DNA from: a virus
Direction: 5' to 3' (one strand)
DNA length: 35,704 nucleotides
Virus record (IMG/VR): IMGVR_UViG_3300049825_000434
Span: 1-35,704 of that record
Made by a program: the position numbers and the translations under genes. Shown here piece after piece: positions 5,028 to 34,389 of this stretch. The notes beneath the pieces are model-generated. The model ran no database searches and was not told the DNA's origin. It saw only the letters and a list, made by a program, of their open reading frames with translations. Position 1 is the first letter of the stretch, and every line of letters starts with the position of its first letter.

Positions 5028-7148
5028 CTACTCCATCCCTATTAATCTGAACGACCCAGCAGGCAGTGCAGGACTCACGGTCACTCGAACCTGTGTTGCA
5101 CTAATAGCTTTGATCGAACAATAGATTCTGTCAAAATCATTTGCGTTATTATGAAGTGCCCAGATCGCGTTTCTTGCGTCTTGAATGCTAGCACTTACTG
5201 TGAAATCTTGTGTTGTCTGAACCCCGTCCCAAGTCGTGTCTGAAACAAACTTAGAAATCCCAGCCACAACCCAAGCAGCCCCTGTGTCTACGTATATTTT
5301 ATTATTATCCATAGCGAAAGCTAGGCGGCCTATATTCTGAGCACTTGAGCTAGGAAGTGAGCCGGATGTGTAATTCTCAAGCCTTAGGCCTTTAAACTCA
5401 CCCTTTGTGTAAACGTCTCTAAAGTAGTTACCAGATCCGCCAAGATCTGTCCCACTCCATGAACCAGAGTAACTGGCGTTCGTAAAAGGTCTGAAATGAT
5501 CTTTTGTAAGAACGCTTCCTTTAGCTGCGTTTGAAGTACTTTCTAAAGTTAAATTTTCACTGGCAGCCGTGCCGCCAATAATACTTTGACCGCCAACTCT
5601 CCCAGCAAGCATCACAAATTGTGTGTGTCCTGCATCTGAAGTGGTTAATCCTGAAAGTGTGTTGTGCGTGATTTCTGTGTCTGGATTAGAAGCCACCCAC
5701 TTAGTGCCATCATAAAACAAGGCCATTCCAGCAGCGACGCCTACGTTGATGTCTCTTAGAGATTGAAGCGTGCTTCGTGTGACTACTGTAGTGCCATCAG
5801 AGATATTTCCAGCTAAGTATAAATCTTTAAATTTTAGAGCTGACGAGCCTAAGTCAAAAGCATTATTTGAAGTAGGATTTACTGAACTTGAAAACTCTAG
5901 AACACCCGATCCATTTGGAGAAAGCGTAATATTTCCATTTAAGTTCTGTGAAGAAATGACATTCGCATCAAGGCGAAGATTGTCTACATTAAGCTGCCCT
6001 GTGACTGTTATAATCCCTGTGGTCGTAATCCCAAGAGTTGTCATAGCATGCTGAACGTCTACAATGCCCGTTCCGTTAGCAGACAAAACAAGATTTCCGT
6101 TTAAGTTTGTAACAGAAATCGTATTTCCTGAGAAAGATAAATTCCCAATAGCAAAACTTGTAGCTGTAAGTGCTCCGCAGGAAATTGATCCTGTGGTTAT
6201 TAAATTATTTGATCCAAAGTTTATAGCGGCACTTAAAGAAGTAATTGATCCATTTGCAAACGTAATATCCGCAAGCTTTGAACCAACTCCAGCAAATAAT
6301 GTTCCCGTAGTAGTTAGGTTTTCATTCCCGAAGCTAATAGCTCCGCTTGAGTCCGTGATACTACCACTGCCAAGTGCTAAAGTGCCAGCCCCTACAGTCC
6401 CAGAGAACACACCGTTCACAGCATTAAAATTACCTGTGGTAGTTAGGTTTTCATTCCCGAAGCTAATAGCTCCGCTTGAGTCTGTAATTGAACCAGAAGC
6501 CAAAGCCAGTGTTCCAGCGTTAGCAATTCCTGAAATCCATAAGTCTTTGAATTTTATGGCTGAGGTACCAACGTCATACGTTCCTGTAAGTGTAGCTCTA
6601 AAGTTATCATCAACCTGAACAAACCCTGTATGTGCCCCTACGCCATCACCTGAGTTAGCTCTTAAGGTAAGATTCTGTCCTGAAAGATTACCGCCATGAA
6701 CTGTTTGCCCTGCAAAAATTGCAGTAACTACGTTACCTGAAACATCAAGATCAGATTTACCTTTTTGGTAAACATATAAGTCTTGCGTAACGTCTTGAAA
6801 AGCCGCAAGGATGGAATCCGTGCTCCAGTCAAAATCAAATACTTTATGCCAACTTGCTGAAACTTCGCCCTCACGCTGCTCCCAGCGATAACCAGCCTGC
6901 TTACCGTCCCCATCGTCTTGCACGACTCGGTAGTCATTTAAGGTGTTTCCTACAAGTGGGAGGGATGCTGGGTCTGCAACGGTAGCCTTGGCATTAGGGT
7001 ATAAAACTTTAACGATCCAGTTAAACGCAGAGTTGATATCACTTACACCTGGAAGTGCTGGGTTGGCATAGGCAAAGTCCGATAAAGTATGTTTCAGCGG
7101 ATGCTGTGCCAGGGTCCAAATTTCAAATCTATGTTTATCAAAAATCAT
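5028..7148 (-). CDS. Long repeat-containing tail fibre protein
   Basis: A 706-aa fibre-type protein. The N-terminal 150 residues look globular (FNWIVKVLYPNAKA, WSTDSILAAFQDVTQDLYVY) and may attach it to the particle. The middle is built of Gly/Ser/Thr/Asn-rich beta repeats. SGSITDSSGAISFGNENLTT occurs twice, with a weaker third copy, and DVGTSAIKFKDLWISG / DLGSSALKFKDLYLAG bracket the repeat block. The C-terminal third carries RLAFAMDNNKIYVDTGAAWV, shared with the 4115-5023 product. At DNA level 6310-6353 and 6439-6482 are identical 44-bp copies. Receptor binding is the expected role. There is no pectate-lyase or endosialidase signature. Confidence 0.7.
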   Translation of the reverse strand: MIFDKHRFEIWTLAQHPLKHTLSDFAYANPALPGVSDINSAFNWIVKVLYPNAKATVADPASLPLVGNTLNDYRVVQDDGDGKQAGYRWEQREGEVSASWHKVFDFDWSTDSILAAFQDVTQDLYVYQKGKSDLDVSGNVVTAIFAGQTVHGGNLSGQNLTLRANSGDGVGAHTGFVQVDDNFRATLTGTYDVGTSAIKFKDLWISGIANAGTLALASGSITDSSGAISFGNENLTTTGNFNAVNGVFSGTVGAGTLALGSGSITDSSGAISFGNENLTTTGTLFAGVGSKLADITFANGSITSLSAAINFGSNNLITTGSISCGALTATSFAIGNLSFSGNTISVTNLNGNLVLSANGTGIVDVQHAMTTLGITTTGIITVTGQLNVDNLRLDANVISSQNLNGNITLSPNGSGVLEFSSSVNPTSNNAFDLGSSALKFKDLYLAGNISDGTTVVTRSTLQSLRDINVGVAAGMALFYDGTKWVASNPDTEITHNTLSGLTTSDAGHTQFVMLAGRVGGQSIIGGTAASENLTLESTSNAAKGSVLTKDHFRPFTNASYSGSWSGTDLGGSGNYFRDVYTKGEFKGLRLENYTSGSLPSSSAQNIGRLAFAMDNNKIYVDTGAAWVVAGISKFVSDTTWDGVQTTQDFTVSASIQDARNAIWALHNNANDFDRIYCSIKAISATQVRVTVSPALPAGSFRLIGME

Positions 7149-8483: not shown

Positions 8484-10397
8484 TTAAAATGCTTTAAGTA
8501 CAGTGTACCCAGCAACAACCAAGGTGCCTGCGACAGTTACGCGAACACGAAGTAGTTGTGCTTGTATATTTAACACTGTGGTTTGAGTCGTAGAGCTTGC
8601 CGCAGGAGAGAATGTAGCCCCAACCGCGTACCAAGTAGCTCCGTTATCGTCAGACCCTTCGATCTGAAGAGTGGCTGGGGTTGTGGCCGTTCCTATATTA
8701 ACAACACACTGAACATTCTTAGCCATTCCGGTTGTTAAACTAGGAGTGACTGAGTTTAAAGTCGTCATTGAAATTGTTCGGTCTATGATCTGACGAAGTG
8801 GTGTGTACGAAGTTAAAGAATTTTGCAGCCTATGAATGGCGCGGGTGAAAGACGGAGTTGTTCCAGTAATTGTTTGCACGTAACGAACCCTATTCCCAGT
8901 TAGTGGGAACACAGGGGATCGGTACATGCCTGTTGCTGTGATTCTTGGGAAATCATATATGGCTACCCAGTTAGTGCCTGTGTCATCTGATTCTTGGATT
9001 TGAACGTCCATCGCAGGGGTTGTTCCTGTAACTACGGTAACTGGAATTACTACAGAGTAAGAAGACCCCGATCCTGGAGTAAACGTGGCTGATGTTGTTG
9101 TTGTAGTGATAGCAGCAGAAGCTTGATCTGTTACAAGCAGCGGTATTGCAGCATTGCTTGAAGTAACACTTGCTACCGCTGTAACTGAGGAAACAGTCGT
9201 CACGGTTCCAGAAGCAATCGTTGCTGTGGTTAAAAGATTGGCGGCTGTATTTTGTACTATCTGGTTAAACCCAGGGGCCCAAGAAGTTTGTGAAAATTTA
9301 GAGTGCGCCTGGATGCTCCCGCCTGTGATTGCTGTAACGATTCGTATTCTATGAAATCTGAACTGTAGTGGGAATGTATATCCAAACTGAGAAGCAGAGG
9401 CTGTGATGGCTGTTGTGATTGGGGCCCCAGTAACGGTGGATTGAATGAACACAGGAATTACTTGAAAGTTTACGTTATCATTAGAGCCTTCAAATATAAA
9501 TGTCCCGCCCGTACCAGTAGACACTACTTGAACAAGGGCTGATCTATAGCCAGTGGTGTCTGTTGCTGCAGCCCCTGCTGTAGCGGTTAAAATATTATTA
9601 ACAATAGCTGTTTGAGCCGCTTGTCCTGTTACAGAAAGATCTTGCACGTTCTCAGAAGAAAGTGTGACGCCTAAAGAAGTAGAAGCTGCTTGCTGACCAA
9701 GGGCCGTTGGAAGTCTTGTTTCTGTAGTGCTTACTGCGGATTGATCTGAAGAAATTACTACAGGAGAACTATTTGCCATGGTTTTTTGGCCAACCGTTGG
9801 TGTGTTCGTAGCAATCGTACTTAAAGAAGTATTCCCTGTTGTCTGAAGTGCTGAGGTGGACGCTCCTGTAGGAAGTGGTAAACTCGAAGCACTAATCGGT
9901 TGTGTAACACCTGACCCATCAACTGGCTGACGTCCAGAAACTAAGGCTGGGGTTTTAGAGTCAATACTTGAAAGACTTGTATTCCCTGTTGTCTGAAGTG
10001 CTGAGGTGGACGCTCCTGTAGGGATAGGTAAGGATTGGATGGCGTTAATCTCTAAACGCCCTTGGGTGTCTAGCTTAAAATGTCTTTTCAACCCGCCTGC
10101 ATCAATACCTGACACAGAAACAGGATTTAAAACAGGCGCAGCACCCACTGCAGACTGACCAGATACTAATATAGAATCCACAGAATTAGAAAGGGACCAA
10201 ACCCTGTCTCTTGGATCTACTTGAGTCCCACCTACAGTGACACCCACGTCTAGGGATCTTTGGCCGCCGTTGCTTTGAGAAGTAAGCCCGTTTCCAGCAG
10301 CATCAAAAATGTAAGTTCCTGGGGAGTACGCTGCTTGAGACAAACTTGAGAAAACAAAAATAAATGTGAACAGTAAAGTCCTTAACCGATATGCCAC
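8484..10397 (-). CDS. Large secreted virion-type protein with internal repeats
   Basis: A 637-aa protein starting with GTG at 10397, which overlaps the upstream gene by 16 nt with AGGGGGG just before it. The N-terminus is a strong Sec signal peptide: LRTLLFTFIFVFSSLSQAA, then YSPGTYIFDA. Near residues 120-190 the segment PTGASTSALQTTGNTSLS occurs twice, and the DNA at 9829-9872 and 9979-10022 is identical over 44 bp. The rest is Thr/Ser/Val-rich beta structure with two similar blocks (FEGSNDNVNFQVIPVF and IEGSDDNGATWYAVGATF), typical of phage appendage domains. A cleavable signal on such a protein is odd and is discussed separately. Confidence 0.65.
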   Translation of the reverse strand: MAYRLRTLLFTFIFVFSSLSQAAYSPGTYIFDAAGNGLTSQSNGGQRSLDVGVTVGGTQVDPRDRVWSLSNSVDSILVSGQSAVGAAPVLNPVSVSGIDAGGLKRHFKLDTQGRLEINAIQSLPIPTGASTSALQTTGNTSLSSIDSKTPALVSGRQPVDGSGVTQPISASSLPLPTGASTSALQTTGNTSLSTIATNTPTVGQKTMANSSPVVISSDQSAVSTTETRLPTALGQQAASTSLGVTLSSENVQDLSVTGQAAQTAIVNNILTATAGAAATDTTGYRSALVQVVSTGTGGTFIFEGSNDNVNFQVIPVFIQSTVTGAPITTAITASASQFGYTFPLQFRFHRIRIVTAITGGSIQAHSKFSQTSWAPGFNQIVQNTAANLLTTATIASGTVTTVSSVTAVASVTSSNAAIPLLVTDQASAAITTTTTSATFTPGSGSSYSVVIPVTVVTGTTPAMDVQIQESDDTGTNWVAIYDFPRITATGMYRSPVFPLTGNRVRYVQTITGTTPSFTRAIHRLQNSLTSYTPLRQIIDRTISMTTLNSVTPSLTTGMAKNVQCVVNIGTATTPATLQIEGSDDNGATWYAVGATFSPAASSTTQTTVLNIQAQLLRVRVTVAGTLVVAGYTVLKAF

Positions 10398-11448: not shown

Positions 11449-12708
11449 TTAGTAGTTCGGGATAGAATGCATAATCGCGTTTTTCCAAGGAGAGGTACAA
11501 ACCAATTCCCCAAAAAGACAGTGGTCTAAAACATAACTGTAACCAGAGGTAGCACGAATTTCGTAGTACTGTTTTCCATCTGGAGCGGTACGACGTTTGA
11601 ACATTCCGTTAGAGAAGAATGTAATCGTGTTCCAATCAAGGTACATAATTGCGTCGTCGTCCATTTCTTGGATACCAACAAGTTTTAAAGTATTTCCAGA
11701 AACAGAGCCAATTTCGATAGTGTCAAAACCGTATTGTGAAGTCTTACGAGAATTTGGTACTACGTTAAATGCTCCTTTTTGGATTTCTAAAACTTTCATT
11801 GCTGATCCAAAGTGTTTGAAAGACATCAATACTTCAGGGGCAGCTCCGCCTTTACCAAGGATTTGACGTTGTACGTACCCATCAAAGATTTTCTCTAAGA
11901 TGTTTGTAGCACTAACAGCAGATCCGTTGACTTGAACAGCTTGTAAGTACGGGTAAGCAAGTTTTGTTTGCCCGTAGATAGTAGCTCCCCCACCATTTGC
12001 CAAAGACAAAAGCTGAGATTTCAAGCTTGTGAAAGATCCAGTCTGAGCACCTGGGTGATAACACTTAGCCACTTGAGCTACTGTGTAAGCACTGATATCA
12101 GCCGCAGCACCGCCACGAGTAAGTGACAATGTCACAGAACCTTTAGCTAAAGTTCCGCCGTTGATGTTAATTGCAATTACATAGTAATTTGCAGCAGCAC
12201 TATTGTTATCTTGTAAAGATAACTTTTGATCCAATGAAAAGCGATCAATACGATCAACCTCTAGAACGCCGCCCACTGTTCCATCAACTGTCGCTTTAGC
12301 AAAGTGTGGACCATTAAGCATGTTCACAGAAACTACCATTTTCATGTACATCATGAAATCTTCGATTTGATCAGGCAAAATCTTCAGGAAAGATTTCTCT
12401 GGGATTTTCCCATCATGCTCCATCAAGTCGCGGTGCTCGAACTTCATAGTTCCCCAAGCTTCAGGCATGCTCGTGATTTGACCACGTACATACTTATGCT
12501 TAGAGATATCTCCATCAGCCGCTAATTGACCGAACTCGATTGATGAGCTGTGCTGTCCTTGAAAAGGAACAGGCAAAGTTCCGCCCTTCCAGCCGTCATC
12601 TTTTTGTGCTTTGTTTAAGCAGTAATCACGTTTTTGCATTTCTTCTTGTAACAAATCAATAGCCAAATACTCATTTAGCATTGATTGAAAATCTCTATTT
12701 GTTCCCAT
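11449..12708 (-). CDS. Major capsid protein
   Basis: A 419-aa protein placed directly after the scaffold-like gene, as expected for a head cluster. Features that fit a HK97-fold shell protein are the helical N-terminus (FQSMLNEYLAIDLLQEEMQ), a Gly/Pro-rich arm region, an E-loop-like segment (KYVRGQITSMPEAWGTMKFE), a long spine helix region (DQIEDFMMYMKMVVSVNML), and a C-terminal P-domain-like part with DTIEIGSVSG and YSYVLDHCLFGELVCTSPWK. No protease domain is fused. The SD AAGGA lies about 9 nt before the ATG. A downstream hairpin and its separation from the next gene suggest its message is handled separately. The call rests on size, order and general shape. Confidence 0.75.
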   Translation of the reverse strand: MGTNRDFQSMLNEYLAIDLLQEEMQKRDYCLNKAQKDDGWKGGTLPVPFQGQHSSSIEFGQLAADGDISKHKYVRGQITSMPEAWGTMKFEHRDLMEHDGKIPEKSFLKILPDQIEDFMMYMKMVVSVNMLNGPHFAKATVDGTVGGVLEVDRIDRFSLDQKLSLQDNNSAAANYYVIAININGGTLAKGSVTLSLTRGGAAADISAYTVAQVAKCYHPGAQTGSFTSLKSQLLSLANGGGATIYGQTKLAYPYLQAVQVNGSAVSATNILEKIFDGYVQRQILGKGGAAPEVLMSFKHFGSAMKVLEIQKGAFNVVPNSRKTSQYGFDTIEIGSVSGNTLKLVGIQEMDDDAIMYLDWNTITFFSNGMFKRRTAPDGKQYYEIRATSGYSYVLDHCLFGELVCTSPWKNAIMHSIPNY

Positions 12709-21619: not shown

Positions 21620-21775
21620 TTAGTAGCCGTTGCCGTAGCCGTAGCCGTAGCCGTCGCCGTTGCCGTTGCCGTTGCCGTTGCCGTAGCCGTTGCCGTAGCC
21701 GTAGCCGTAGCCGTAGCCGTAGCCGTAGCCAATAACAGAGTGTTGTTCCTCAAAGTTTATAGTTTGTTTGCCCAT
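21620..21775 (-). CDS. 51-aa Gly-Tyr/Gly-Asn repeat microprotein
   Basis: An ATG at 21775 with AGGG nearby opens a frame of 51 codons: a 15-residue head (MGKQTINFEEQHSVI) then 18 dipeptides, mostly Gly-Tyr with Gly-Asn in the middle and one Gly-Asp, ending at TAA. The DNA is a pure hexamer array, GGCTAC or GGCAAC. It overlaps the end of the preceding gene by 19 nt. Only the second codon position of the variable residue changes, and Gly is always GGC, so the array is young or is kept even by slippage. Low-complexity aromatic/Gly repeats can drive self-association. A function is not known. Confidence 0.6.
   Translation of the reverse strand: MGKQTINFEEQHSVIGYGYGYGYGYGYGNGYGNGNGNGNGDGYGYGYGNGY
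21623..21730 (-). repeat. 18-unit hexanucleotide array (GGCTAC/GGCAAC)
   Basis: This is 108 bp of uninterrupted 6-bp units on the minus strand: six GGCTAC, a mixed centre rich in GGCAAC with one GGCGAC, then mostly GGCTAC again. The unit is a multiple of three, so gain or loss of units keeps the reading frame of the microprotein it encodes. Confidence 0.95.
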
Positions 21776-23453: not shown

Positions 23454-23633
23454 TTATCAGATGGTTCAACGATACTCGGGCCTTGAGTACTTTGGGTCTC
23501 GAGTTGGGACGGGATGGTTCTTGGGCTTCGGTTCTAGGTTGTTGCGAGCGCAACGTGGTCTATAAGATATAGAGACACTAAAGACTGTATCAACTTAAGT
23601 CAATTAAAATAAATTTAAAATAATACTAAAGTC

Positions 23634-25134: not shown

Positions 25135-25353
25135 ATGAGTATATTTAAAATTTCAAGTCTCATTTTAGGATTTTTACTTTGGTCTGTAGGACTTTACATT
25201 ACAGCTACACTTCTAGTCGTTAACAGTCACTACAACATGGAGCTAGTAAAACAGCTTAAGGCGGACCTAACTCTTTCAGCTCCGGACCGCTTAAAGCTCT
25301 ACAAGATGACTAAACGATCATTCAGTTACGGGAGTTCAAATGAACAACTTTAA
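25135..25353 (+). CDS. Small membrane protein
   Basis: The start is the ATG at 25135, with AAGGAAG 6 nt upstream. The longer frame has no ribosome site. The 72-aa product has one strong membrane helix (FKISSLILGFLLWSVGLYIT, then ATLLVV) and a polar, helical tail (MELVKQLKADLTLSAPDRLK, KMTKRSFSYG). It overlaps the next gene by 14 nt. Together with two lipoproteins it suggests an envelope-directed operon. Confidence 0.55.
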   Translation: MSIFKISSLILGFLLWSVGLYITATLLVVNSHYNMELVKQLKADLTLSAPDRLKLYKMTKRSFSYGSSNEQL

Positions 25354-25852
25354 GACCGCTAGACTAGACCGCTTATACTTTCAATACATATGGGACAACC
25401 CCAAAATGAAGGGTTGGGACGCTGAAACGCTCGCAAAGGCCCTAGAATCGCTTGGAATGGTACGCCTTCATACCATCGACTCTAAACTTAGATACGAGCG
25501 TCTTGAGCCATTTAAGGCCTTTGAGCATCGCGTTAACTTTAATAGCCTGATTCCACAACTAACGGAGGTACGTATGAAAAACGCTTATATTGGAAAATCC
25601 TTGAAAACTTTGGCCCTTGTTATTGTTTCATTAGCTTTGGGAGCTTGTGCCTCTCCAAAACCAAGAGGCTTTGAGCTTCCGCCTGCGCTTTCAGAAGTTT
25701 TTAGAAATGGAGAGCTTAAGGGTCTAGAGACAGCTACCGATGGAAACTTAGGTATCCCCAACCAAAACGCCCGAGTCCAACATGTTTGTGTTAGCCAACC
25801 TTTGTACGACCTTTACGGGAACTACACAAGAACCGCAGTCCGATGTTTTTAA
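25340..25852 (+). CDS. 170-aa ORF containing an in-frame lipoprotein gene
   Basis: The frame begins inside the previous gene and its first 78 residues form a soluble, helical, Arg/Leu-rich part (NFKTARLDRLYFQYIWDNPK, WDAETLAKALESLGMVRLHT). It then runs without a stop into a lipoprotein signal sequence that has its own ribosome site. The full-length product would carry an internal signal sequence. Either two genes have fused by loss of a stop codon, or both products are made. The N-terminal part has no recognised family. Confidence 0.5.
   Translation: MNNFKTARLDRLYFQYIWDNPKMKGWDAETLAKALESLGMVRLHTIDSKLRYERLEPFKAFEHRVNFNSLIPQLTEVRMKNAYIGKSLKTLALVIVSLALGACASPKPRGFELPPALSEVFRNGELKGLETATDGNLGIPNQNARVQHVCVSQPLYDLYGNYTRTAVRCF
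25574..25852 (+). CDS. Nested lipoprotein gene (in-frame internal start)
   Basis: GGAGGT lies 4 nt before the ATG at 25574, a better site than that of the longer ORF. The 92-aa product starts with MKNAYIGKSLKTLALVIVSL, then ALGACASPKPRGF: a positively charged n-region, a hydrophobic core, and a perfect LGAC lipobox with Cys25. The mature part is about 68 aa with two Cys near the end (HVCVSQPLYDLYGNYTRTAV, ending RCF), likely a disulfide. A small outer-membrane or periplasmic lipoprotein such as an o-spanin or receptor-blocking protein is possible. It lies far from the lysis cluster, which argues against a spanin. Confidence 0.65.
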   Translation: MKNAYIGKSLKTLALVIVSLALGACASPKPRGFELPPALSEVFRNGELKGLETATDGNLGIPNQNARVQHVCVSQPLYDLYGNYTRTAVRCF

Positions 25853-25895: not shown

Positions 25896-26265
25896 CTACC
25901 ACGGCAGTTTTCTCCAACTCCGGAAGCGCACAGGAAGAGGGGTTTATAAAAGGAAATATTAAATGTTCTTAAATTGCTAAACATTAAAATAACCTCTGTA
26001 TTCCCATTGAAAGAAAACTGCCGTAAATGCCGTGGTAGATAACAAAAAATAATAAAATCAAGTACTTATACCACGGCAGTTTTCACTTTGAAAATGCCGT
26101 CCACGGCAGTTTAAAATGCCGTGGTAGGGCCGAAAACCGCACTTTTCCAACAAAACACCCCTGCCCACATTTTAAGCACTGCTTTTTTAAAAGCACCCCA
26201 AAACAAAAAAAAAGATGGATTTTTACTCCATCTTTTCAAAACTGCCGTGGTAAACTGCCGTGGTA
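25896..26265. repeat. GCCGTGG/CCACGGC repeat array, origin or control site candidate
   Basis: This gene-free stretch between convergent genes holds seven exact GCCGTGG cores in both orientations (CCACGGC at 25899, 26071, 26101; GCCGTGG at 26029, 26118, 26244, 26257) and two shortened GCCGT pieces (26021, 26096). The wider unit is TACCACGGCAGTTTTC or its complement. Copies pair: 25896-25912 with 26013-26038, and 26101-26108 with 26117-26124 as a hairpin. The two at 26241-26252 and 26254-26265 are head-to-tail, 13 bp apart. It abuts the 3' end of the primase-helicase gene. Confidence 0.8.
26210..26236. terminator. Bidirectional terminator between convergent operons
   Basis: AAAAGATGGA (26210-26219) and TCCATCTTTT (26227-26236) are exact complements with a 7-nt loop. 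An A-tract on the left and T-tract on the right let it stop transcripts from both sides: the rightward lipoprotein operon and the leftward primase gene. Confidence 0.8.
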
Positions 26266-26280
26266 TTACACCACAGCGCA

Positions 26281-28587
26281 TTAAAAATCATCAGCTTTTA
26301 ACACCATATTCGAGATCCGATAGATCCCTTTCCAGTCCTTAAACGTCTGTGCCCAAGTTTCATCAAGTCTTTTAAAGAACCGATGCTTACCAGGCTTGTA
26401 CGATCTTCCATACGAATCTTCGTACCATATCTTAAAGACTTCCCAAACCTTGGATCGTTCAGCGTATTCGTCTCTTTTTTCCACGTCTTTGTTCTCTAGA
26501 TACTTAGAGCCGCCTTCTTTAATTTCAGCTAACCACTGCCCAATAGAGTCGTGCTCCATGAGCCATGAATCCATTTCCTGTAGGCTTGACTCAGGGACAG
26601 TATATTTACCTCGGTTGGCTACAACCCGCCTAGCCCCTTCTAAAGCCCAAGCCAATATTCCTTCTTTTTCCTTTAAGAATAAATCAATCCCGTAGTTTTT
26701 ATCCATTTTATCATTTTCAATTGGCTTTGCTTGTATCTTTAGGAGAATCCATCTTCGTCTGTGAGCGTCTGATTTCTCATAAGTAGCTGGAGTGTTGTTG
26801 CCTCCGAAAATATGAACCGCAGGGATTGTTGCGCGGACCAAGGCTCGCCCTTTTCTGTTAATACTTATAGGTACTCTATCCTCTATCGTTTTAATTGTGT
26901 GGTTTGGAATTGGTTTATCAAGCTCTATATCAGTTACAATATTTACCATTTTACCAATGAGAGACTCCATGTGAAAGCCTTCGAATAAATGTGGATCAAG
27001 AGAGGCACAATTTTCTGGGGCTATCATTTGGTGAGCGGGGTATATAAGCGTACTTTTGCCAGTGGCAGCACGCCCGAAGATCATAAATAGTTTTGGATAT
27101 ATCGGAAACAGACAGGCTCCATACATTTCCTGAACACTTTCAATTTTTGAAGTTTGGTCAGAATCGCCTTCGAACAGACGATTCAAGAAACTCAGAAATT
27201 CTGGGCACGTGGCTCGCGGATCGTAGTCAATGTCTATATAATTAAGATTTAAGTCTTTAGTGTCGTGGGCGTGCTCTTCTATTTTGTCATTCATAACTCT
27301 TAGTGTTTTGTTTCCTACAACGCAGACGTAAGGACTTGTTATATAGGGGTTTTTATACATGTGGGGGACAATATCCTTAAAAGTCCTTAAGATACTTTCT
27401 GCTTTTCGTTGTGAGTTTTGTTTACCGAGAGCCACGTTAATTTGAACGCGGACCTTAGCTAAATTATCTTCTCCTAAAGAGACCCAGCGTTTTCCTTCAT
27501 AAAAGAATAGCTCACCTTCGTATTTTAGAACTTTGTCTTTATAATACATCAGTATGTGGTGCGCTACCTCAAGGTCTGTAGGGGGTAAGGGTTTTCCGTT
27601 TTCGGCGAGCCGCTGAGCCAAGGGCTGAACTCCGTTGATGTAGCCCTCTAGATACTTTGGGTGGGCACCATCCGTGATGACTTCAGCCGTAGCCAGGACT
27701 TCACTAAACGAAAGCTCTAAGGCCTGAGTCACAGCTTCAAGGCCCTTAGCTTGCATGATATCGTTAAAGTCACTACAGCCTGTGAGCTGCTCAGGAACAC
27801 ATAAGGTAGCGTGTGCTCTAAGAGCAGCTTGCTCCCCTGCCTCAAGGCCCGCGTTGGGGGTTTTTGTAAAGTCGTTGTCACAGGCTACTACTATTTTAGA
27901 GTGTTTATACTTTTTGCGTAGAGCAAGAGCCACGTTTTCCATATTGGTGGAACCAAAAGCACACACTACTTGAGCTTTTGGCCTTGCTAGTTTTAGAGAT
28001 ACCCCAGTGGAATATCCTTCGCAGAGTATGATCTCACTTGCTTGTGTGATCTTTTCACTATTTATGACGTGGATTAAATCTTTTTTACGAGCCTCTGGCT
28101 CAAAGCTTTTTGCACCAAGTGGTGATATAACGTGGAGGTTCCAGATCTTTCCAGACAAGTCTGTCATGGGGATGAATAACTCTTCGGTATTGGCTTGGTT
28201 AACGACACACTTCACACCTTCAGGCAAAGTATGTAAACCTTTTTTGTTTAGGTAGATGGAACTAGGAATTGTTTCTAGGTCTTTGTACCTTTTCTCCAAA
28301 GCAAGAGCCACGGCTTTTTGTTTCGCGGTCCTAGCTTCGCTGATAACTTTTTCGTTTTCCTTATCGACTTCGCTCCATGATTTATCGTCTAGTGCATAGC
28401 CATGCTTTTGTGTAAGCTTTTGGCCCGTGCGCCAGTCACCAAGGGTAACGACGGCTTTTCCGTCACGTAAGTGACCAACGTACCAACCCTTTTTACTTGC
28501 AGTGCTGAACTCATGAAACGCGCCATCAAGCTCAAGCGTAGGCAAGTCATAGCCCGAAGCGCGAAGCTTTGTTAAAATTTCTTCCAT
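26281..28587 (-). CDS. TOPRIM primase fused to SF3-type helicase
   Basis: A 768-aa replication protein of the phage P4 alpha / plasmid RepA-like type. The N-terminus (GAFHEFSTASKKGWYVGHLR, then LGDWRTGQK) is the usual lead-in for TOPRIM primases of this class. TOPRIM motifs are IILCEGYSTGVSL (Glu about 190), VVACDNDF (237-239) and CSDFNDI (272-276). The helicase part has Walker A FGRAATGKST (about 504-513), Walker B-type VNIVTDIE, sensor FGGNNTPATYE and the DAHRRRW arginine segment. It would make primers and unwind DNA for the PolA at 32467. The start is the ATG at 28587, with GAGGGG upstream. No zinc-finger is visible at the N-terminus. Confidence 0.85.
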   Translation of the reverse strand: MEEILTKLRASGYDLPTLELDGAFHEFSTASKKGWYVGHLRDGKAVVTLGDWRTGQKLTQKHGYALDDKSWSEVDKENEKVISEARTAKQKAVALALEKRYKDLETIPSSIYLNKKGLHTLPEGVKCVVNQANTEELFIPMTDLSGKIWNLHVISPLGAKSFEPEARKKDLIHVINSEKITQASEIILCEGYSTGVSLKLARPKAQVVCAFGSTNMENVALALRKKYKHSKIVVACDNDFTKTPNAGLEAGEQAALRAHATLCVPEQLTGCSDFNDIMQAKGLEAVTQALELSFSEVLATAEVITDGAHPKYLEGYINGVQPLAQRLAENGKPLPPTDLEVAHHILMYYKDKVLKYEGELFFYEGKRWVSLGEDNLAKVRVQINVALGKQNSQRKAESILRTFKDIVPHMYKNPYITSPYVCVVGNKTLRVMNDKIEEHAHDTKDLNLNYIDIDYDPRATCPEFLSFLNRLFEGDSDQTSKIESVQEMYGACLFPIYPKLFMIFGRAATGKSTLIYPAHQMIAPENCASLDPHLFEGFHMESLIGKMVNIVTDIELDKPIPNHTIKTIEDRVPISINRKGRALVRATIPAVHIFGGNNTPATYEKSDAHRRRWILLKIQAKPIENDKMDKNYGIDLFLKEKEGILAWALEGARRVVANRGKYTVPESSLQEMDSWLMEHDSIGQWLAEIKEGGSKYLENKDVEKRDEYAERSKVWEVFKIWYEDSYGRSYKPGKHRFFKRLDETWAQTFKDWKGIYRISNMVLKADDF

Positions 28588-28619
28588 ATAATTGATTCCC
28601 CTCAATATGTGAAGAATCA

Positions 28620-28648
28620 AATTAAGTTGACAAAATATCTGGGGTCAA
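28620..28648 (-). promoter_or_regulatory. Leftward promoter for the primase-helicase gene
   Basis: On the minus strand TTGACC (28648-28643) and TTAATT (28625-28620) are 17 nt apart, about 33 nt upstream of the ATG. A second TTGACA on the plus strand (28627-28632) makes the pair TTGAC...GTCAA a loose inverted repeat, so it may also be a binding site. The -10 is weak. Confidence 0.4.
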
Positions 28649-28682
28649 TGAAATTTATTTTATAACAGGCTAGTTTCTGTTG

Positions 28683-28721
28683 CCGCGCAAGCTTTACCTC
28701 AATAGGGCTTGCGCGGTTTTT
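28683..28721 (+). terminator. Rho-independent terminator in a divergent region
   Basis: CCGCGCAAGC (28683-28692) and GCTTGCGCGG (28707-28716) form a perfect 10-bp stem followed by TTTTT. It points rightward although no rightward gene lies directly upstream. It would end a short RNA or antisense transcription from the primase side, or attenuate the replication operon. Confidence 0.85.
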
Positions 28722-32470: not shown

Positions 32471-34389
32471 GTAAAAATATAATTGTTGAAGACGGTAATC
32501 TTCAGGATACGCTTATTTATTTAAAAAACCAAAAGGTGTTAGCCGTTGATACGGAGACCACGGGCTTTAGGGTCTTTCAAGATGACGAACTATTTTCCAT
32601 TCAGATAACTACTGAAAAGTTAGAGAACTTTTATTTTAACTTTTGGGAGTATGACAAGTGCGGAGCGTGGTGCACTGACGAGGGCGTATTAGATGCCATT
32701 TCCTACGAAGGTGAAATCTATAAAACTCTAGGCCCTGTATTGTCTAAAGAAATTATCCCTCGTTTAAGTGATGTACTTCGGGGGAAAATGGTGTTTTTGC
32801 AAAACGCTAAGTTTGATATGCATTTCTTAGAAAAAGCGGGTGTGGAATTAGATTTTGAGGTCCACGATACGTGGGTCGGAGGGCGTTTACTTTATAACGA
32901 CCACGCGTCTTACTCACTGGACAATCAGGCAAAGCGTGAGCTTGGAGAAAGTAAAATAGACCTTGTGATGAAATACATGGATGACATGGGCGCATATTCT
33001 ATGGAGTTTGTTCAAGGTAAGCAGTCAAAGAATAAAAACTATAGGTTTTACGAAGTTCCTTTTGGGCTGATGTTTGAGTACGGCTGTAAAGATACTGAGC
33101 TTACAATGCGCTTAGGCCTTAAACAGGTGGAAGGAATAAAAGCCCAGAACGCAAGACAAAAAGTAGGGACTCTTTATGGCTTTGGGTTTATGGATGTTTA
33201 CGAAAATGAAAAAACTTTAACTAAAGTCTGTCAGAAGATCGAGAAACGTGGAATTAAGATTGATAGGAGATATTGTGAAGAAGCCTTTGAATTTGAACGT
33301 ACAAGTTATTTACAAAAAGAAGCAGAATTTAGTAAAGAAACCGGAAGAGAATTTATTGATTCAGGAGATTGCCTCGGTCCAATCCTTAATGCAAGAACTG
33401 GAAAAGAACTACCAAAAACACAGGACGGGGCCTGGGAAGTGTCAGAATCCGTGCTTTCCAAGTTGGACGACACTGTAGCAAAGCTTGTTCTTGAGCATAG
33501 AAGTCATTATAAAAACGCACACACTTATTTCGCAGGATTTATGAAGTTTGCTGATAAGAATGATATTCTTCACCCAGACATGCTTCAAGCAGGCACAAGA
33601 ACCGGACGATTTTCATATAGAGACCCCAACCTTCAAAATGTTCCAACTGAAGACACAAGTAAATACCCGATCCGAAGAGCCTTTGTTCCTAGGGAAGGAA
33701 AGTACTTTGTGATGATAGATTATAAACAGATGGAATTTAGGCTCATGCTTGAGTACGCTCAAGAGACAGAGCTTATAAGAAAACTTTTACAAGGGTTTGA
33801 CCCCCACCAAGCGACTGCAGATTTAACTGGAGTCACACGGTCTCAAGCTAAAGTATTGAATTTTGGCATATTATATGGGATGGGAAAAGATAAGCTTGCA
33901 GCCGCCTTAAAGTGTACTTCTAAAGAAGCATACAACTTTAAGCAACAATACTTTGACGGACTTCCTATGGTACAAAACTTAATTATTCAGCAAACCACTA
34001 ATGCTAAAGCTAGAGGCTTTGTTATTAATTGGTTTGGAAGGCTATTTCAATTCCCAGACCAAAGGTTTTCTTACAAAGCAACAAATGCCCTTATTCAAGG
34101 CGGTTGTGCAGACGTAGTAAAAAGAGCCATGGTTATGATGAAAGACGAGCCCGTACTTTTGCAAATACATGATGAGATTTTGCTTGAGTATGATTTAGGG
34201 GACACAACGTCTGTGGAAAAAGCTGTGCATACTATGGAAAACTCTTTTCCAGCAAAGCGTTTACCCTTGACGACATCCATAGAGCACAGCCTAGAATCTT
34301 GGGGTGACTCTATGGAAGGATTACCAGATGCCGCAGAAACCAGAAACCGCGTTCAAAAAGAAAGTCCAAGCAGCTTTGCTAACGCTTGA
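32467..34389 (+). CDS. Family A DNA polymerase with 3'-5' exonuclease
   Basis: A 640-aa phage replicative polymerase. Exonuclease: Exo I AVDTETTG (Asp28, Glu30), Exo II NAKFDMHFLE, Exo III EYGCKDTELTMRL, so proofreading residues are present. Polymerase: the template-binding segment GTRTGRFSYRDPNLQNVPT, motif A MIDYKQMEFRL, motif B RSQAKVLNFGILYGMG, motif C LLQIHDEILLEY. There is no 5'-3' exonuclease domain, as usual for T7-like enzymes. The 640 aa fit that class. It works with the primase-helicase (26281), SNF2 helicase and SSB-like protein. Confidence 0.93.
   Translation: MSKNIIVEDGNLQDTLIYLKNQKVLAVDTETTGFRVFQDDELFSIQITTEKLENFYFNFWEYDKCGAWCTDEGVLDAISYEGEIYKTLGPVLSKEIIPRLSDVLRGKMVFLQNAKFDMHFLEKAGVELDFEVHDTWVGGRLLYNDHASYSLDNQAKRELGESKIDLVMKYMDDMGAYSMEFVQGKQSKNKNYRFYEVPFGLMFEYGCKDTELTMRLGLKQVEGIKAQNARQKVGTLYGFGFMDVYENEKTLTKVCQKIEKRGIKIDRRYCEEAFEFERTSYLQKEAEFSKETGREFIDSGDCLGPILNARTGKELPKTQDGAWEVSESVLSKLDDTVAKLVLEHRSHYKNAHTYFAGFMKFADKNDILHPDMLQAGTRTGRFSYRDPNLQNVPTEDTSKYPIRRAFVPREGKYFVMIDYKQMEFRLMLEYAQETELIRKLLQGFDPHQATADLTGVTRSQAKVLNFGILYGMGKDKLAAALKCTSKEAYNFKQQYFDGLPMVQNLIIQQTTNAKARGFVINWFGRLFQFPDQRFSYKATNALIQGGCADVVKRAMVMMKDEPVLLQIHDEILLEYDLGDTTSVEKAVHTMENSFPAKRLPLTTSIEHSLESWGDSMEGLPDAAETRNRVQKESPSSFANA

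Follow-up and report, generated by a model that had tools for sequence, protein, structure and literature searches.

The window analysed here is a whole 35.7-kb contig (35,704 nt; IMG/VR record IMGVR_UViG_3300049825_000434), which represents the genome, or a fragment of the genome, of a tailed phage. Portal, weak terminase and tail matches all lie on the - strand, and the + strand encodes an SNF2 helicase, two Pam3-like proteins and polymerase A. Between these two groups of genes sits a small + strand block, whose last ORF is lipoprotein-like, has no family match, and is followed by a primase-helicase gene on the - strand (Table 1). Elsewhere in the window, we noticed, on the + strand at 28682-28717, a strong hairpin of 15 pairs that resembles a terminator, between the start of the primase gene and the divergent + strand operon, as well as 18 copies of tandem GTAGCC/GTTGCC hexamers at 21623-21730, possibly a coding repeat.

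The convergent gap that separates the lysis genes from the primase gene is filled by a repeat array (25897-26265) that lies directly 3' of the primase-helicase gene, with units starting 16 bp beyond the primase stop (26265 vs 26281). The array comprises nine copies of the unit (T)ACCACGGCAGTTTTC, seven of them with full cores and two truncated, and the units occur in both orientations, three one way and six the other. TACCACGGCAGTTTTC is exact at 25897 and 26069, the units at 26237 and 26250 carry 1 mismatch to it, and the other array units carry 3-4 mismatches. The array is absent elsewhere in the contig; specifically, seven exact GCCGTGG/CCACGGC cores fall within 25899-26263, and outside the array this motif occurs only twice, each time singly (4216 and 28308). 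The clustering of the units (p ~1e-16) exceeded that in all of 200 order-2 Markov shuffles of the array's 3-kb neighbourhood, the best of which reached 5e-10. Inverted units fold as strong hairpins, as RNA or as single-stranded DNA, and a search of the array against Rfam gave no match. A single ACCGCACTT at 26136, a Haemophilus uptake-type word, was dismissed as it is present in one copy.

Most of these features had been noticed in a sequence-only reading of the contig. The seven exact cores and two partial ones that it listed are all present, the truncated copies being at 26013-26024 and 26090-26100; the stretch is gene-free as described, given that the single ORF inside the array (73 aa) looks spurious; and the head-to-tail copies 13 bp apart are seen, in inverted orientation, at 26237 and 26250. 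A terminator placed at 26210-26236 was recovered at 26209-26237 on the - strand, where it belongs to the primase gene, and is probably not part of the origin proposed below. The 9-nt insert reported at 26013-26038, on the other hand, makes better sense as a pair of truncated units, GAAAACTGCCGT and AAATGCCGTGGTA, arranged head-to-tail 9 nt apart.

Table 1 Features of the repeat array and of its flanking genes, in window coordinates.
Feature	Position	Strand	Basis
Lipoprotein-like ORF (possible spanin), convergent neighbour, outside the proposed origin	25340..25852	+	signal/lipobox read by eye
Iteron unit 1, TACCACGGCAGTTTTC exact; left border of AT-rich core	25897..25912	+	sequence
AT-rich stretch, GC 0.21; proposed melting region between opposed units	25943..26012	.	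lowest-GC 70-mer of array
Truncated unit GAAAACTGCCGT; right border of AT-rich core	26013..26024	-	sequence
Truncated unit AAATGCCGTGGTA, head-to-tail with truncated unit 26013..26024	26025..26037	-	sequence
Second A/T-rich gap; stretch 26036-26070 has GC 0.14	26039..26068	.	duplex-stability analysis
Unit TACCACGGCAGTTTTC, exact	26069..26084	+	sequence
Truncated unit GAAAATGCCGT	26090..26100	-	sequence
Unit, 4 mismatches, GTCCACGGCAGTTTAA	26099..26114	+	sequence
Unit, 3 mismatches, TTAAAATGCCGTGGTA as + strand	26111..26126	-	sequence
Intrinsic terminator-like hairpin of primase gene, within array span	26209..26237	-	terminator prediction
Unit, 1 mismatch, CAAAACTGCCGTGGTA as + strand	26237..26252	-	sequence
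Unit, 1 mismatch, head-to-tail with unit 26237..26252, period 13	26250..26265	-	sequence
Primase-helicase (Toprim_3 + D5_N + SF3/DUF5906), proposed initiator	26281..28620	-	profiles, model

The adjoining primase-helicase

Family profiles locate Toprim_3 (197-293), D5_N (355-483) and DUF5906 (515-622) domains in the window primase-helicase, placing a Toprim primase and an SF3 helicase in one chain, the combination that characterizes proteins of the P4-alpha type. A structure model of residues 340-779, built with twelve sequences, reached a pLDDT of 81.5 (an earlier whole-primase model from 6 sequences, with a pLDDT of 47.6, was too poor for use). Its best structural match was the SaPI5 primase-helicase (Foldseek E 2.7e-16; VIA-align Z 28.4, rmsd 4.7, 375 residues), which a profile search also put first (E 6.5e-38). 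With 7ola/7om0 being best by profile, Foldseek and VIA-align, the protein falls among the SF3/D5 proteins related to SaPI Rep, and we model it as a D5/SF3 primase-helicase closest to the SaPI5 initiator.

At the C-terminus, where P4-alpha-type initiators carry a winged-helix origin-binding domain, the window protein has no family match and the lowest confidence anywhere in its model. In the homologue from the related contig G005 (see below), a C-terminal Pox_D5-type domain (727-795) scored above the curated cut-off and an RFX_DNA_binding match below it. The tail profile of the window protein did not match the tail profile of G005 and G015 (probability 4.9).

Relatives, AT-rich core and strand skew

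A nucleotide search of the 25.5-29 kb region against phage records gave no match, and single-protein searches with the primase and the polymerase returned no relatives in IMG/VR. Alignments were therefore needed, and the family was found by alignment-based scans with helicase, primase and terminase. Relative to the window, G002 (L216/L226) shows 30%, 52% and 53% identity in primase, portal and terminase, respectively, and G005 (L237) shows 48% in helicase and 51% in portal. Of 16 contigs searched with a six-primase profile, 9 carried the gene and, together with the window, G002 and G005, gave 12 contigs for comparison.

The GCCGTGG array is found in none of the relatives. We scanned the contigs, blind to position, for mixed-orientation k-mer clusters, and a cluster ≤300 bp from the primase stop ranked first or second in seven of the twelve (i.e., the window, G002, G005, G014, G016, G017 and G018), where the 700 bp around the stop lie in the top 1.6-4.1% of same-contig windows. 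By our own arithmetic, the joint chance of 7/12 is ~1e-7 assuming independent contigs, which these are not fully. The units of the arrays differ, namely (G)AAAACTGCCGTGGTA, TTTTGCCCC, TCTCTTGTTC, CGGTGCA, AGCGGTTCCGG, ACTGGACAC and GAAACTACC; the last, from G018, resembles the start of the window's GAAAACTGCC, a resemblance that may be due to chance. Units overlap the end of the primase gene in G002, G005 and G014, and the G002 array is modest when taken alone (1 of 60 shuffles was equally good). As for the other contigs, in G004 both the repeats and a very AT-rich stretch lie 5' of the primase, G015 has a weak repeat set near the primase stop, and G001 has no clear array at that stop, its best nearby cluster being 1.3 kb away. 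G003 and G013 have no cluster near the primase.

Repeats were also observed at other places. G013 carries a mixed-orientation cluster of CAAAGGCCC at 33227-33664 (L269 region 8787-9065), 7 kb from the primase, and G015 carries four 26-bp tandem copies with TGTCTCAAAACGAGACA palindromes at 6500-6595 (L293), 0.7 kb past the primase. In another relative, a 1.3-kb gene-poor region (L136:1200-2480) contains two tandem copies of a 26-bp sequence, two occurrences of GTGACAATTTTYGTCACCGGGTAATTT and five units resembling CCGCTTCAG, and could be the origin or a regulatory region of that relative. Of four cultured phages examined that have a distant D5-type primase, K300, 9NA and Flyfo lack a strong cluster near it. 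Streptomyces phage Mischief19 (MK686071; L131:1628-1948) has eight AGCATGCA copies with flanks, arranged in two mirrored sets around a ~140-bp gap; the cluster adjoins a D5-type primase gene on its 5' side and is a possible origin in a cultured phage.

All seven arrays at the primase stop contain an AT-rich gap of ~80-120 bp bordered by oppositely oriented units. The gap measures 108 nt in the window (with one unit to the left and eight to the right), 103 in G005, 83 in G018, 113 in G014, 93 in G017 and 120 in G016, and ~110 nt in G002 when read from the sequence, ignoring a weaker unit inside the gap. Arrays make up 1-2% of a contig, and the contig's lowest-GC 70-mer lies inside the array in G014, G016, G017 and G018, and also in G004, there on the 5' side. 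The proportion of 70-mers as low in GC as the core is 0.03% in G005, 0.23% in G002 and 0.65% in the window, where the lowest-GC stretch lies near 23595 and not in the AT-rich core. Duplex stability agrees with the GC picture, as only 0.22% of the 60-mers in the window are as unstable as its core. Judged by its sequence, the gap has the form of a DNA-unwinding element between putative binding sites.

Since raw skew follows gene direction, we fitted third-position GC skew with gene strand and array side as separate terms. Strand-corrected + strand GC3 skew was higher to the right of the array in all nine contigs (9/9), and the 90% bootstrap interval of the side term lay above zero in eight of these (6 kb span). 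In the window, + strand skew is negative in the lysis genes (+) to the left of the array and positive over most of the primase gene (-). When all positions were scanned, the window, G002 and G017 had their skew optimum at a distance of 0.4-1.1 kb from the array, and the array ranked at the 93rd-98th percentile in G005, G016 and G018, with larger optima away from the array in G005 and G016. The array reached only the 67th-76th percentile in G001, G004 and G014, hence these contigs are unsupportive. Overall, the skew evidence lends moderate support to an origin. We note a second strand-corrected GC3 skew switch in the window at 12200-12700, with a sign opposite to the array's, which is a candidate replication terminus.

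A putative replication origin and competing explanations

Among the functions suggested for the array from the sequence alone, an iteron-type origin used by the adjoining primase-helicase is now the best supported, given that the layout recurs and that strand-corrected skew rises across the array, where a switch in skew had been looked for. The unit occurs at one place only in the genome, and no relative shares it; what has been kept among relatives is the position, the AT-rich core and the mixed-orientation layout. Because these three recur and the skew rises, the evidence does not show the lack of conservation and of skew change that would argue against an origin, despite the turnover of the unit. 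We consider it highly likely that the array is a phage replication origin, with iterons around a DNA-unwinding element, immediately 3' of the gene for a Toprim-D5/SF3 initiator. The adjoining primase-helicase is most likely the initiator of this putative origin, and the array is best read as an origin of the PICI/SaPI style, here belonging to a family of complete tailed phages.

Under this origin model, the C-terminal tail of the protein would bind the 13-16-bp units and, because the units flanking the ~100-bp AT-rich core point oppositely, two hexamers would load face to face. The SF3 motor would melt the AT-rich core, the Toprim domain would prime both strands, and the phage polymerase A would extend two diverging forks, i.e., replication would start bidirectionally.

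The converging flanking genes, the strong hairpins formed by inverted units and the terminator within the array span would also suit a transcription feature of the convergent gap, either hairpin repeats that terminate transcription or block read-through or an operator array for a phage regulator. We regard this as unlikely, considering that an ordinary terminator is already there, that termination needs no ~100-bp AT-rich core with opposed borders (often the contig's lowest-GC spot), that units run into the end of the primase gene in three of the relatives (G002, G005 and G014), and that the skew rise would be left unexplained. Short repeats in both orientations, as present here, are typical of partition and copy-control sites, and copy control and origin may coincide, e.g., in P4 crr. 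A partition or copy-number control site for a ParB-like or other small protein, an option raised at the outset, has nonetheless lost ground and appears very unlikely: a ParA-type gene (PF13614) was found in none of the 12 contigs, with all control genomes positive, and neither an AT-rich core nor a skew rise is expected of a partition site.

An attP, with short arm-type sites of either orientation bound by a tyrosine recombinase, would fit the short enzyme of this class (~175 aa) encoded within ~1 kb of the array in G002 and G005, and further off in G015. However, the gene is lacking in the window and eight other contigs, including G014, G016, G017 and G018 with their strong arrays (3/12 positive), and the recombinases found are merely ~175-256 aa, making an attP highly improbable. 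Finally, insertion of a small mobile or REP-like element next to the primase gene, also proposed initially, would account for inverted near-identical units and for relatives without a trace of the window's unit. Several findings speak against such an element: all copies of the unit sit at a single site in the contig, rather than being dispersed in the manner of REP or MITE sequences; inverted 10-mer pairs of the unit occur in none of 2.9 million viral contigs (IMG/VR); and the 63 hits of tandem 10-mers in GTDB were all unrelated tandem arrays, mostly coding-type. The exact 15-mer gave 59 single hits in viral contigs, roughly the chance number for the collection size, none of them with the array. 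Insertion would also not predict that relatives carry comparable arrays, built of other sequences, at this position, and we find a mobile repeat scarcely credible.

Comparison with known systems

In SaPIs and PICIs, the origin directly follows the initiator gene on its 3' side, with one iteron set on each side of an AT-rich region (PMC6092414, PMC7581432). The Pri-Rep-ori arrangement (SaPI5, SaPIbov1, EcCICFT073) is matched here by the position of the proposed origin 3' of the putative initiator gene, which is seen in the window and six relatives, and by iterons on both sides of an AT-rich region; SaPI5 additionally shares a D5-type SF3 helicase fused to a primase as initiator. In contrast, PICIs are satellites, whereas the window encodes portal, terminase and tail proteins and therefore does not represent a PICI. 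Furthermore, the primase part of the window protein is Toprim_3 and not AEP, the units on either side of the core face opposite ways, and related phages have different units. These observations suggest that complete tailed phages use a SaPI/PICI-type origin too, with a Toprim primase.

A more tentative proposal, possible but on balance doubtful, is that the origin retains its architecture and location throughout this phage family, whereas the iteron is replaced by a new sequence in each lineage; initiator tail and iteron would then co-change fast, so that each replicon becomes private. If true, a private replicon might, for example, guard against satellites or co-infecting relatives using the origin. 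The seven related phages, with a shared layout and different iterons, thus form a natural series for tests of co-change between SF3 initiators and their sites. The layout also offers an origin-finding rule for uncultured phages: look immediately beyond a D5-type primase gene for an AT-rich core enclosed by clustered repeats in mixed orientation.

Other systems share parts of this design. Phage P4 alpha, acting with ori1/crr, likewise combines a Toprim-type primase, an SF3 helicase and an origin-binding tail that acts on repeats in one protein (domain facts from PMC4234260), the tail being a candidate here; P4 differs in its unit sequence and in being a satellite. In SCCmec, the D5-family helicase Cch2 uses its C-terminal domain to bind repeats that lie a short way downstream of its own gene (PMC7581432). 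The window resembles it in having a D5-family helicase with repeats just downstream of the gene, but Cch2 has no fused primase, has three iterons only, and belongs to a mobile cassette. The pRN1 ORF904 origin falls in the 166 bp that follow a primase-SF3 helicase gene at its 3' end, and an origin of the tailed phage BIP-1 has also been proposed (PMC4234260); both agree with the window in origin position and differ from it in having a large stem-loop without iterons and an AEP-type primase. The mechanism is already known; what is new, as far as our searches reach, is the family of phages, their Toprim variant and the speed at which the unit changes.
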